From: Sycon ciliatum
Lineage: Eukaryota > Porifera > Calcarea > Leucosolenida > Sycettidae
Length of the DNA stretch: 64,000 nucleotides
Reading direction: 5' to 3'
NCBI RefSeq assembly: GCF_964019385.1
Contig: NC_088643.1
Coordinates: 398,278-462,277, forward strand
The translations under genes were made by a program, and so were the position numbers. Shown in pieces: positions 6,101 to 12,100 of the stretch. Numbering within the stretch: the first letter of the stretch is position 1; the number at the start of each line of letters is the position of its first letter. The notes under the pieces are model-generated. The model made no database searches, was not told the DNA's origin, and saw only the letters and a program-made list of their open reading frames with translations.

Positions 6101-9100
6101 TAGAATCTTCGCTGACTGTGACCGTTATAACATAATTTTTATGTTATATCGAGGGAATCAAGAATATCTCGCTCCCTAGTCATGGCAGCAAGAAACACTC
6201 AGAAAAGTTGAAAAAAGTGAAAAATTCTAGTATACAAGCAAGTTATGTACACTTTCGTTTAGTACATAAACCCCGTTAATACATAACATTTGTCAAGTCC
6301 CAGAGATTATGTATTAACGAGGGACGACCTGTATGTGAGGGGTGGTCAAGCAAACACGCGTACAAACAACCAGCCATAACTCAAGTTCTGTGAGTTGTAG
6401 GTATGGGTAAACTATATATTTTCAAAATCTGTATGCCTGGACGAGCCCAGAAAACACAAATATGACTATGTCCAGGCAAGGGTATGACCCGTGGTAGCCC
6501 TTCAAGTTGAGAGAAAATACAATTGCGAACAAAAAACACAAAAATCACAGCGCGAAGTGCATACCAAGTTCGTGATGGAGCTGAAGTCCTATGATAAACA
6601 ATCAGGTAAGCGCTACGTCTTGGTGAAGAATATATGCTCCTAATTCCGTCCTTGAACTCCAATACCTCGCCATCGGCGATGCACCAGCAGCAACAGTTCC
6701 ACAATATCACAATTTTGGTTCGTTCACTTCAGCTCCGCTCGCGTCAGATTCACTCTCGCTCAAATGAGTACTCAGGCGCGATGTCACGCATGCCGTGATT
6801 CTCACGGCCAGGCGGATCAGCTGATCACACCTGACAAGTCCTTGTAAACGTTGCTGTTGCTGTGCTTCCTCGCTGGTTGGTAAATTTGATTTCTTCATTC
6901 GGGGACGATTTATTTGAGCTAGGAGGACTCAACGGAGCTCTCTTTCTCACGACATTACACTGGAAATCCTCCAGGGACACCCAGCCTAGACTGGTGCCGT
7001 CAGTGTCCTCAGAAAGCTTTTCTGACACGGCCTCAAGAGATGCACTCCCATTCGCGAAATGCGCGCATGGCGGATGGTCGTCTTTTCCAATTTCACCAGA
7101 CTTCAGTCGATCGATACTGCAAAAATTTGTATGGTAAGTATGGTTGTTTTTTACACCGTTGGAAAGCCTTGGACCTCAGCTATGCGTGGAGCACCATTTT
7201 AGTTGTCTCCTAGCAACAAAACTCACAGAAAATGCGACTTTACTGTAAAGCTGTGTTCACAACTGGCGCGTGTACGCGTGAAATCACGCGTTTGTGCGTA
7301 TTTTTTGCTGGCTTTTGGGGCGCCATGCGTACGGAAACGCGCCGAAATGGAACTTCCAACATGTTGGAATTTTCAGCGCGTATCAGGCGCGTATCAGCGT
7401 ACATGCCAGTCACTTTGACTGGCGGGGTCAAAAAATTAGTACTCGAAGGTGTCGCACGCGCCAAATACGACTCGGATTGCTGTTTTTTGTGAAAGGCTGA
7501 GCGCGCGTTTGGGGGCGCATGAACCGCAAGCGTACCGCGTCCACGCGCCAGTTGTGAACACAGCTTAAGGGTCACATACGACCCTTTCGCTTATGTGAGA
7601 CCCATAAAGGGTTAACTTCCCCTTTAATACGCCCTCTACTAGTATACCCGTGTACACACCCAAGTGCCGTGTGTCAACACTCTTGTCTCATTTTTTTACC
7701 CACCTCCGTGTGAACGCCCATGGGCGACATCACAGGCCCAGTACACAGTGCAGTGCATGCACAGCTCCACGTGCATGTACAGTACTGCAGTGTAGTGTAC
7801 AGTACACAGACTCAGTGCAGTGCATGCACAGCTCCACGTGCATGTACAGTACTGCAGTGTAGTGTACAGTACACAGACTCAGTGCAGTGCATGCACAGCT
7901 CCACGTGCATGTACAGTACTGCAGTGTAGTGTACAGTACACAGACTCAGTGCTGTGCATGCACATCTCCACGTGCATGTACAGTACTGCAGTGTAGTGTA
8001 CAGTACACAGACTCAGTGCAGTGCATGCACATCTCCACGTGCATGTACAGTACTGCAGTGTATGTAGTGTACAGTACACAGACTCAGTGCAGTGCATGCA
8101 CATCTCCACGTGCATGTACAGTACTGCAGTGTAGTGTACAGTACACAGACTCAGTGCAGTGCATGCACATCTCCACGTGCATGTACAGTACTGCACTGCA
8201 GTGTAGTGTACAGTACACAGACTCAGTGCAGTGCATGCACATCTCCACGTGCATGCACAGTACTGCATGCTGTTACGCAGTGGACATCTAACAAGATGGC
8301 GGCGAAAAGTTTGAAAACGCTGCGGATTTACTGAAATCCTATCGACTTAGTACAAAATGTATAGAATTATATAATTTCGCCGGATTTAGTACTTTCTTTC
8401 GGTAAAGTCGGTCTAAACCCAAATATTTTTTGAAACGACAAGGAAGTAAGAACAGAAGTCTTGCTGTCGAAAACATCAAGAAGAAGAATTATTATTGGAG
8501 GAAGTAGAAGTGAACAGTTAGACCTTACCTCTCTGGCTTTGCGTGTAGTCAGTGTTATGGCGGACTGGCTGGTTGATCTGCCTGCGATGGAGCAGTCCGC
8601 TGCCTCGATCGAACTTTGGGCCGTTGATCTGCAACGTCTGGCAGGGTGCATACGAGGTGTTGTTCTGCAACAGCATGCAGGCGCTCAAGCTCGCCGGGAA
8701 TGGAACCGTATCTCTTCTCCAGCAGGTTGAACTCGGCGTGAATTCCTTCCGCGCCCTGTTCCGATAGTAGACCAAGCCCGACGTGCACTCTCCGCATCAG
8801 CGGCACAGTGTGTTCCTCAAGGAGGTGCAGCTTTGGAGTGATGTGACCTAAGCCTCTCTCCACCACCTCGCTCCGACATTTCTGTAAGAACGAGGCAATG
8901 GAGAGCTCCAATTGCTGCAGTTCCTCCTCTCCACATTTGTTGCAATGGCTGAAGGAAGATCTGCACGCTGCGTACTGGCTGAACAGGGACTTGTACCGCT
9001 CACTGACTACTTGAGCGTCATTCCGCAGAGCTGGGCACCGATCTCCAATGACAATTGCTGGGGCCTCAGTGATAGCTGTGATCACGGCGGGCTTGAGGGC

Positions 9101-12100
9101 ACGGTGGATATGGTTCCCTACGAAAGCACCGCCGTGATAGGCCTGCCGATGGATAATGTTCTTCTGCAGTACTGGCTCTATGGACGCTTCGCACGGGCCG
9201 AGAACATCCTTGCTGCGGCGCAACTTGGCCAGTTCGTCTTCAGCAATCTTCAGCTGTGAGCTACACTGCTCTGTGTCGGTCTGTGCTTGCTCAACCTCCC
9301 GTTGTAGCACGCCTGCGAGTGCTTCTATCGCCATGCCCTGTTGCTGGCCAAACAAGACGATGAAGTGCAGATGATTCTCCAGAGCGGTGGCTTTCGCTGT
9401 TGCTTCCGAGAACGCTGTTTTGCAGCCAGACAACTTGTGATTTGCAGCTGACAAGGCTCTAAACCGTCCACTGTCTTGCTCTTCAGCGTCGCATTGTTCT
9501 GCAAGCTGCATGTCCAGAAGACGGACCTCGCGTGTGAATACATCAAAGATCCACGGGAATACACCGAGGTCTAGGTGCAGCACTGGAATAATGGCGCTCG
9601 CAACGGGCACTGGCAATAGGACTGGTCGGATGGTGTTGTTATACAGCTTTGCCTTTGACAGCAGAGCACCTGCGCTAGTAAACTGTGCATAGTCCTCCGC
9701 CATCTTCTCTAAGGACCGTGCTCCATACTGTACGTCGCGGTTCGCTGGTGGGACCTGCATGTCTTTCTTCGTGCACAAGCAATGGAGGCAAGGCCTTACG
9801 CCACTGGAACCCGACAAGCCGTAGTTCATGGTTTGGTACTCGTAATCACCAAACAGATAAGGCACAATGGTCTTGCCTTTCCATTTCTGGCCCTGTAGCT
9901 CTGCAATTTGGTTCCGATACATTGAGAGTGCAGTTTCCAGGTTTGCCGGCAAGTCCTTCTCTGCAAACACGCAGATTGGCACAGTGTTGGCGAGTGAGTT
10001 TGGATGCATGGTGTTGGCGATTTGCATCACGAATTTAAATGTTGTCTTACCATGGTCACCGCCCAGCTTGACCCATATCTCCGTTTCTGGGATGGCGCCA
10101 TCATGCCATGTCAGCTTACTGCCGCTGTCAAGTATGTCGAGGTAGTGGATAATGATGTCGGTTAGGTTTGGAAAGTAGACAGCTGCAGCAAGTGACAACT
10201 CGCCAGTCCGCTTGACAAAGGGGAGCTGCTTCACTGTGTATTTCGGCAAGGTGGTGGCTATGAATGAGCGAATGCTTCTCTCCGATTCAAGCTGAACTCC
10301 GAAGGAGCGGAGCCATCTGCGCAGCTTCCGGAGTTGCGCCCAAGGAAGGCTTAGATCGGCCTTGATGGCAAGGGCAGTGCCTGGAGGTGGTTTGATGCTG
10401 GTAGCGCCAAGTCCAGCAACGCCATGCCGTGTTGCATCTGCTGTGGTGCAAACTGTCTCTGTGATGCGCTCCATTTCCAGTGACCGTCGTTTCAGCGTCC
10501 TGGCTGATGCCTCCTCCGGCTGCTTGCTGCCAACTGTTGTTCGCATGAAAACTTGCGGTCTTCCTTGGCTGCTGGTTTTCACTTCCAGCCTCCCATCTTC
10601 TGCTTTGGCGGACACAAGGTGACAGGTCAGTCTGTCACTCACATCGCCCCGTAGCTTTGATGGTGACGCTGCTAAGATCTCCTCCACTGTTGCAGCTTTG
10701 GTTGCAGTACGAATGGGCGTTCCTGAGGATGTGGATGGATTGAACGGACATGATGTGACATGACCTCGTAATTCATGGAGGCGAACGGTTGCTGGGCAAC
10801 CCGACAATGCTGGTTCATGGAAGTCACAATGTACACCCCACTTGCTAACCATATTGCACACTAGCTTGCATGGCTTCTGCAGTGTCGCCAGTGCCATTGG
10901 CTGTCTGCATACTGGACATGTATTGTGACTCTTCATCCACGTGTGCACGCATGTTGAGCAGAATATATTTTCACAGCATTTGGCTTGAACTGCTCCATTT
11001 ACCACTTGCAAACATATCATGCATTCCTGCACAGCTCCACTGTCAATAAACCGCTCTTTCTCTAATGCTGCTTCAGCCCGATACATAGGCGCTGCGTGCG
11101 CCGAAATCTCGTCCAAAGTAACTGCGGATGTTTGACTATCAGTGGTGTGTGCTATTGTGTTGGTGTCACCGCTGCTACTGCTGCTGGTGCGTCTTTGCTG
11201 AGAGCTAGGACTGCCTTCTGGCAGTTCAGCTGATGTTGATGCCGTTGATGTCTGTCGTTTTGCCGCTTGGCCACGCAGTTCACTGACGGCTTTCCGTTTC
11301 GGTGGACGGCCGCCCTTGGCTCCTACAGCATCACTCTTACATACGGCACAGTTAGATCTCGTATGTGGTTGCCATGTAACTGGGCCATTGCAGCCCCCAC
11401 TACAATACTTATATGTGTCATCTCTCATTGAACGTGCAATAGCAAATTGACAAAGTGAGCACATGTACTGGGGATGCACGTCAGGGGAATCTTTGGAAAC
11501 ATCAATTTTAAAAACTTTGCCGATCTCTTCAACATAATTCTTCACCGGATATGGAGTTTTGTGACTAGCACTGGCAAGTTTTTGGCCACCAATGCGACAC
11601 ACGGATTCAAGAATACTCGAGTGGTGCTCCATCGCAGAGCAGAAAGCAACAAACAAGGCTAAAATGTCGATGCGCGATCGAGACTTCCTTTGCGCGATCT
11701 GGGACAAGAGCGCGATTTTCGAGATATAGAAGGTCTCTAGTGCCACCAAAAACACAGCAAGCAGCTGCGAAAACTCGGCGCCGGGATGTAGGCAGCAATG
11801 AAAGTAGAGCAGTTTTGGGAATCGAAAGAACAAAGGACGTGGAGGCGACATGGCGACAGAAACCTGTCGCCTCTTGGGAAAGACGATCCAAAAGGCATCA
11901 ATGCGTTCCTTGAAGCTTCCCCTGGACGAAAATCGCGGTTGTATGGTAAACCGTGTCGATGGGAGACGATAGGAGCCAAAATGGCCTGGATACCAACGTG
12001 AAAAATGCAATTCTCAGCTATTCTCTGGGGGCCGTCGCGTTCAAAAATTCAAAAAGTTTCAAAAAAATGACGCCATTTTGAATGTCCGATTTTGTGATCT

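Follow-up and report, generated by a model that had tools for sequence, protein, structure and literature searches.

A 64,000-nucleotide stretch of the genome of the calcareous sponge Sycon ciliatum (contig NC_088643.1, positions 398,278 to 462,277 of the forward strand; hereafter the window) contains one long reading frame that resembles RAG1 from its zinc-binding N-terminal region to its DDE core. The question raised by this locus is whether the frame belongs to the RAG lineage, to a host gene, or to a transposon of another group with the domain arrangement of RAG1. The data presented here make it very probable that the frame encodes the transposase of a Chapaev element (CMC/Transib-related), a cut-and-paste DNA transposon 3.85 kb long, of the subtype whose transposase has CHAPA and RING domains. 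As judged from the alignments, the order of CHAPA and RING ahead of the DDE core is that of vertebrate RAG1. Chapaev transposons with CHAPA and RING have already been described (PMC4411706), and the Sycon element is a well-preserved new sponge member. A preliminary description of the window had suggested a RAG1-like transposon in another lineage, and the host is indeed an unusual one.

The frame occupies positions 8555–11632 of the minus strand and has 1025 codons without an internal stop (ATG at 11630–11632, stop codon at 8555–8557). The preliminary description had correctly reported an uninterrupted RAG1-like gene of 1025 residues here, to which the strand has to be added: translation of the plus strand across this interval gives numerous stops. 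From stop to stop the frame extends over 1152 codons; the ATG at 11632 is the likely start, because the alignment of the window family begins close to it, with M1 and H4 nearly invariant. A search of the S. ciliatum assembly (538 Mb, 313 contigs; the window is C1:398278-462277) for further copies, as the preliminary description had proposed, gave at least 45 further matching stretches (46 scored with the window copy). Together with Pfam matches of the window protein to RAG1_imp_bd (E = 1.3e-13), RING (E = 1.8e-7) and DUF1280 (E = 1.4e-13), they show that the frame is not due to chance.

Residue counts below refer to an alignment of 28 rows of the window family (A1), with gaps, which stem from partial proteins, set aside. 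Two of these rows are labelled Sycon ciliatum, 22 were assigned to sponges because of their similarity, their labels giving no source, and the scpid labels on four are presumably Sycon identifiers. One public protein, P0002, is near-identical to the window transposase, has a 73-residue N-terminal extension and is named NRDP1/RING finger protein 41, a name that probably stems from its RING.

The assignment to the Chapaev group is based on the core, the element ends and profile comparisons. DUF1280 is the Chapaev transposase and was grouped with RAG1 in a survey of RNase H proteins (PMC3985635), and the reported hallmarks of Chapaevs are target-site duplications (TSD) of 3–4 bp and invariable CAC/GTG termini (PMC4079192). 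The Sycon element has a DUF1280 core, a 4-bp TSD and CAC...GTG termini, of which the window copy keeps only an intact 5' end, and its transposase has CHAPA and then RING ahead of the core. When 14 rows of the window family were compared with 10 other Chapaev-like rows, the profiles matched with E = 2e-112, against E = 7.8e-6 with the cores of RAG1 and RAG1-like proteins.

In a tree of 45 rows, the 28 window-family rows form one clade (100/100), which under midpoint rooting adjoins P0031, P0034 and two sea-slug proteins; the neighbourhood of P0031, P0034, P0035 and P0038 depends on this rooting, and P0034 is flagged as a long branch. A quick tree of 30 rows, which included RAG1 and no Transib rows, gave two groups, RAG1 and Chapaev-like, each with SH-aLRT support of 100, and did not resolve the Chapaev sister group of the window family. 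P0031 and P0034, which lie outside the window family, have a CHAPA-like start, and RING is absent from them in the alignment. With an E cut-off of 10, the Pfam RAG1 family (PF12940) gave no match in the window protein. In a diverged relative (locus L031, 1456-3166, minus strand), the C-terminal part passes the PF12940 cut-off (27.6 vs 25 bits; 26.4 in the genome search), and the start matches RAG1_imp_bd.

Between the element ends at 8269 and 12114, the transposase frame is the sole long one, and no RAG2 partner was seen among long, unspliced frames; a genome-wide search with PF03089 (RAG2) gave no match, but neither did its controls, which makes this search uninformative. In the open-licence literature, covered mostly by titles and the first lines of abstracts and by passages of PMC4298943 and PMC13337447, no sponge Chapaev or RAG1-like transposase was recognised.

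The DDE core carries the same residues as RAG1 at the decisive positions. DUF1280 matches all 28 A1 rows with E no higher than 1 (lowest value, 2.8e-19). D526 and D596 are conserved in 28/28 rows each, H936 in 23/23, and H941 and E962 in 22/22 each, so that D526, H936/H941 and E962, which the preliminary description had picked out, are confirmed in every row that covers the position. Its choice of D688 as the second catalytic residue has to be revised, and D596 is very probably the residue in question. D596 lies 19 residues ahead of C615/C618, the same spacing as from RAG1 D708 to C727/C730, and shares an alignment column with D708 in 8/8 RAG1 and 22/22 Chapaev-like rows. D688 was considered and rejected: it aligns with RAG1 D797 (LHCDIG) and is Asp in none of 12 relatives outside the family.

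In the 30-row alignment (two of 32 rows were skipped, as the first motif was not located; RAG1 numbering was read from the printed chain), the columns of D526, D596, C615, C618 and H936 agree in all 8 RAG1 and all 22 Chapaev-like rows, and those of H941 and E962 in all 8 RAG1 rows and in 20 and 21 of the 22 Chapaev-like rows, respectively. The core profile of 24 Chapaev-like rows (A7: 14 of the window family, 10 others) matched that of eight RAG1 and RAG1-like cores (A6) with E = 9.5e-12 across 472 columns, with null results in the controls (reversed profiles, E = 0.26 and 0.41; ten profiles with shuffled columns, E = 0.36–0.91). Separately, the 10 other Chapaev-like rows gave E = 2.2e-9 against RAG1 and RAG1-like cores, and the 28 rows of A1 gave E = 1.5e-6 (reversed control, 0.031). 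A single RAG1 sequence matched the family profiles in a C-terminal stretch only (E = 0.078 with A1, 1.7e-4 with A4); the full core alignment was obtained only once RAG1-like relatives joined RAG1. In a search of the PDB, the wider-family profile matched chiefly PHD chains, and ProtoRAG with E = 0.014.

The N-terminal third also resembles RAG1. A profile of 12 family members aligns in a single colinear stretch with residues 101–378 of PDB 9jpu_A, which we take to be mouse RAG1 (E = 8e-25), and this stretch takes in the N-terminal zinc region, the RING and the following finger. With the core match, it upholds the near full-length homology to RAG1 first proposed for this frame. The zinc ligands that had been listed for the N-terminal region are conserved as well: C58 and C61 in 18/18 rows, and H90, C95 and C98 in 19/19. 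This region alone matches the RAG1 N-terminal chain 21wb_A (E = 9.6e-13), and a 15-row profile of it matches the corresponding vertebrate RAG1 profile, built from the six of nine vertebrate rows with a recognisable start (E = 2.7e-15; reversed controls, 0.19 and 0.25). The N-terminal region is thus specifically RAG1-like, and the concern that it might resemble only generic zinc proteins did not materialise for it. The RING and finger alone are less telling, since they match a RAG1 construct (6e-10), TRAF6 (2e-9) and RING2 (5e-9) nearly equally. It should be noted that the replacement of the RING His by Asn, which had been pointed out as odd, is real (N222) and a family-wide trait, with His in only 2 of the 21 rows that cover this position; the C219–C220 pair is invariant (21/21). 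The C3HC4 ligand set of RING E3 ligases, which includes the His, is accordingly incomplete.

A second peculiarity noticed earlier, a coiled-coil-like insert at about residues 725–815, is real and family-wide in length, its coiled-coil character being judged by eye. From the LHxDxG motif to the next block there are 57–63 residues in RAG1 rows versus 143–149 in the window family; the figures are 118–130 in P0031, P0034 and P0035 and 192–218 in the PHD-bearing relatives (30 rows measured, of which three were not measurable and one was mis-measured). In five Chapaev-like transposases (P0030, P0032, P0037, P0040 and P0044), a BPTF-like PHD finger lies within the insert of the DDE core, as placed by eye. 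A PHD finger also stands at the C-terminus of RAG2, perhaps by coincidence.

The element ends were defined from other copies, which carry CACGGCTGTTACGYAG and, at the opposite end, its complement (CACGG...CCGTG) and measure 3849–3855 bp (10 copies). Among the 17 window-family loci besides the window copy, both ends were recognised in 10, one in six and none in one; all 10 with both ends have an exact 4-bp TSD. Two of the loci, L017 and L018, are probably the halves of a single element. In each of two sister subfamilies of six loci, an exact 4-bp TSD flanks 5/5 copies, and one locus is without a recognised end. Overall, of 30 loci examined, all 20 copies with both termini recognised have an exact 4-bp TSD.

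Transposition in the window family is recent. At least 46 genomic matches were scored, of which 29 are full length without stops, and 11 open copies of the window family, the window copy included, are 97–100% identical in protein to the window copy (rounded). The 100 bases at the start of the element matched 18 places in the genome, 17 over 99–100 bases and one over 51. The recent activity that the preliminary description had read from the open frame is thus well founded for the family. The mean difference between two of the 11 open copies is 9.2 synonymous and 10.0 non-synonymous changes, and the pooled ratio of non-synonymous to synonymous change (pN/pS) is 0.34; in the sister subfamilies (six copies each) it is 0.29 and 0.30. 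These ratios, calculated from pairs that are not independent of each other, are consistent with selection on the transposase protein. Four similar copies of another subfamily (G000:C1:75275781, C7:1339707, C7:30359332 and C4:35905542) have one TAG each in an otherwise full frame and perhaps moved in trans.

The window copy itself is inserted in a 67-bp satellite array. When its flanks were joined with overlaps of 0–8 bases, the best fit to the array was obtained with four shared bases, TGCA, by a small margin. Ends of the form TGC...GCA with a certain TGCA duplication were considered for this copy and dropped, since other copies end in CACGG...CCGTG; the window junctions are therefore disturbed, and TGCA is the probable target duplication, with slight damage at both edges.

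Several observations weigh against the identification of the element as a mobile Chapaev with the domain order of RAG1. The 3' edge of the window copy reads TG instead of the outer CACGG, and six extra bases (12115–12120) follow its 5' end, so this copy may now be immobile. In 10 of the 30 loci, including that of the window copy, one or both termini were not recognised, and inverted ends taken from the window alone are weak evidence, as two 12-mer matches with at most one mismatch arose in 10 of 100 shuffles. The two core profiles share little identity (15% across the aligned columns), the RNase H fold is predicted from profile alignment and motif spacing, and D688 is conserved within the window family (25/26 rows).

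Two other identities were weighed. If the locus were a RAGL/Transib transposon or a sponge orthologue of RAG1, and thus branched directly from the RAG lineage, this would explain why N-terminal region, RING, finger and core are colinear with RAG1 and why PF12940 matches the C-terminal part of the diverged relative above its cut-off. We consider this reading very improbable, because RAG1 is so much more distant from the core than other Chapaev-like proteins are, the RAG1 rows form a separate group (in the quick tree, without Transib rows), the TSD is 4 bp in 20/20 copies whereas RAGL, RAG and Transib have 5 bp as a rule (PMC7204232), no RAG2-like gene was seen in the element, and the window protein itself has no PF12940 match even at E up to 10. 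A single-locus host gene domesticated from a transposon would agree with the long intact frame and with the host-gene-like name of P0002; the 18 genomic places with the element 5' end, the 11 near-identical open copies, 10 copies each with its own exact TSD and the position of the window copy inside a satellite array make it hardly credible. The suggestion that the locus might be an N-RAG-TP element is not retained either: a complete core follows the N-terminal region, which leaves that label unsupported, and the core family is Chapaev/DUF1280.

The Chapaev identity leaves two histories to be weighed, which do not compete with it. CHAPA and RING may have joined the Chapaev core independently of RAG1 by convergent shuffling. 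P0031 and P0034 have a CHAPA-like start without RING, and PF12560 is not among the 25 families listed for 22 wider rows; therefore, these modules come and go. Taken alone, moreover, the RING and finger hardly separate RAG1 from TRAF6 and RING2. Such convergence is nonetheless unlikely in our estimate, given that a CHAPA-like region is common to the family, P0031/P0034 and RAG1 (E = 2.7e-15 for family and RAG1, 6.4e-11 for family and P0031/P0034, 1.2e-7 for P0031/P0034 and RAG1), that the order of modules, including the finger behind the RING, agrees with RAG1 in a single stretch, and that an ancient fusion is favoured in the analysis of Kapitonov and Koonin (PMC4411706). Tentatively, we propose that RAG1 in its full length, from the zinc N-terminus through RING and finger to the DDE core, could have been inherited as a unit from a transposon that existed before sponges separated from other animals and that RAG1 would then be no late fusion of Transib with an N-RAG-TP-like sequence; this is a possibility that we do not press.

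Two accounts of the N-terminal half of RAG1 have been given: in one it was added late to a Transib core (PMC8355894), and in the other an ancient fusion was followed by the loss of parts (PMC4411706). The sponge family, with its full architecture and open copies, extends the RAG1-type architecture beyond cnidarians and bilaterians, and its occurrence favours the ancient fusion unless it is explained by horizontal transfer, which has been reported for Chapaevs (PMC4079192). RAG1-like genes have been reported in cnidarians and a unicellular alga (PMC9435367), so the deep age of the RAG core has already been argued in print. If RAG1 did descend as a single unit, its ancestral architecture would live on in sponge Chapaevs that were mobile until recently. 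Near-identical copies with defined ends also allow a direct test of the role of a RAG1-like N-terminal region in transposition without RAG2.

On the basis of RAG1 homology and general knowledge of DDE transposases, the following mechanism can be proposed for end binding, cleavage and the N-terminal region. The transposase would bind the 16-bp inverted ends, and D526, D596 and E962, brought together in an RNase H fold, would cut beside the terminal CAC, as RAG1 does at the CAC heptamer. The zinc site C615/C618–H936/H941, whose residues are homologous to those of RAG1, would staple this fold. The excised element would join its target with a 4-bp stagger, giving the 4-bp duplications observed in the genome. 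CHAPA, RING and the C2HC finger may act as a dimerising and protein-contact module, like the RAG1 N-terminal region; the Sycon RING is possibly short of full E3 activity because it is without its His. The insert ahead of the last catalytic helix may form a family-specific arm.

Table 1. Features of the Sycon element and its flanks (positions are those of the window).
Feature	Position	Strand	Basis or remark
Transposase reading frame, 1025 residues	8555..11632	-	one open frame; 1025-codon frames in 11 copies
CHAPA / RAG1 N-terminal zinc region, residues 3-153	11174..11626	-	PF12560, E 1.3e-13; ligands C58, C61, H90, C95, C98
RING domain, residues 202-243	10904..11029	-	Pfam, E 1.8e-7; Asn222 at the H4 position, CC pair 219-220
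C2HC finger behind RING (C269, C279, H291, C295)	10748..10828	-	in line with the RAG1 stretch to residue 378
DUF1280 (PF06918, Chapaev transposase), residues 421-579, contains D526	9896..10372	-	Pfam, E 1.4e-13
Putative first catalytic Asp, D526 (RAG1 D600)	10055..10057	-	alignments
Probable second catalytic Asp, D596 (RAG1 D708)	9845..9847	-	alignments and motif spacing
ZnC2 ligands C615-x2-C618 (RAG1 C727/C730)	9779..9790	-	alignments
Insert, residues ~725-811, between LHLDLG and the GPC..RQxYHGG..GNH block	9200..9460	-	helical by eye
ZnH2 ligands H936-x4-H941 (RAG1 H937/H942)	8810..8827	-	alignments
Putative catalytic Glu, E962 (RAG1 E962)	8747..8749	-	alignments
5' terminal inverted repeat, intact, CACGGCTGTTACGTAG	12099..12114	-	match to the ends of other copies
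3' terminal inverted repeat, inner 12 bases only, GCTGTTACGCAG	8269..8280	+	edge: TG replaces CACGG
67-bp satellite array, left of the insertion	7746..8267	.	repeat units; ends with TGCA, 8264-8267
67-bp satellite array, right of the insertion	12121..12455	.	after the six bases 12115-12120; starts with TGCA, 12121-12124

The satellite array (7746–8267 and 12121–12870) is interrupted by two insertions; within its right-hand part, the 344 bp at 12450–12793 carry inverted arms of 46 nt (78% complementary) and resemble a small non-autonomous element. Long reverse-transcriptase frames, non-LTR-like by eye, lie on the plus strand at 173–2644 and 32061–34547 (RVT_1, E = 5.5e-28 and 4.9e-34), the latter with Cys/His-rich finger-like motifs close to its C-terminus. 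A 531-codon frame at 14012–15607 (plus strand), rich in Ala, Thr and Pro, consists in part of repeated EGASYPPNHPASML-like units and has no Pfam match above the cut-off. The 177-codon frame at 34777–35310 (minus strand) matches BTB/POZ weakly (E = 2.6e-4) and is perhaps an exon of a host gene.

Compared with known systems, the PHD-bearing Chapaev-like proteins of brittle star (P0032, P0037) and sea cucumber (P0040) have the same DUF1280-type core with its catalytic and zinc residues; PF12560 is not among the matches listed for them, and a BPTF-like PHD finger, placed by eye, lies within the insert (10 of 22 rows). The N-RAG-TP element of Aplysia is similar in having RAG1 N-terminal-like sequence within a transposon, but by a second-hand description (PMC8355894) it holds the N-terminal part only, whereas the Sycon element adds a complete core. 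RAGL/ProtoRAG and Transib share with it a RAG1-like core and ends that start with CAC; RAGL carries RAG2L and has a 5-bp TSD as a rule (PMC7204232), in contrast to the 4 bp of the Sycon element, and Transib is described without the N-terminal region (PMC8355894, PMC7204232) that the Sycon transposase has.

With vertebrate RAG1, the N-terminal region, RING, finger and core follow in equal order, and D600, D708 and E962 as well as C727, C730, H937 and H942 all have partners in the Sycon transposase. The Sycon core, however, is only remotely similar, with a longer insert ahead of the GNH block; its RING is without the His, no RAG2 was seen, and the element is mobile with a 4-bp TSD. The nearest known system is that of Kapitonov and Koonin (2015), who described the Chapa domain as common to Chapaev and RAG1 and then RING in two Chapaev subgroups (PMC4411706). 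These Chapaevs share with the Sycon element the CHAPA zinc region, the RING and the Chapaev-type DDE core. The word "sponge" is absent from the main text of that paper, which names lancelet, starlet sea anemone and others as sources of Chapaevs in general, whereas the present one resides in a calcareous sponge, in many near-identical open copies.

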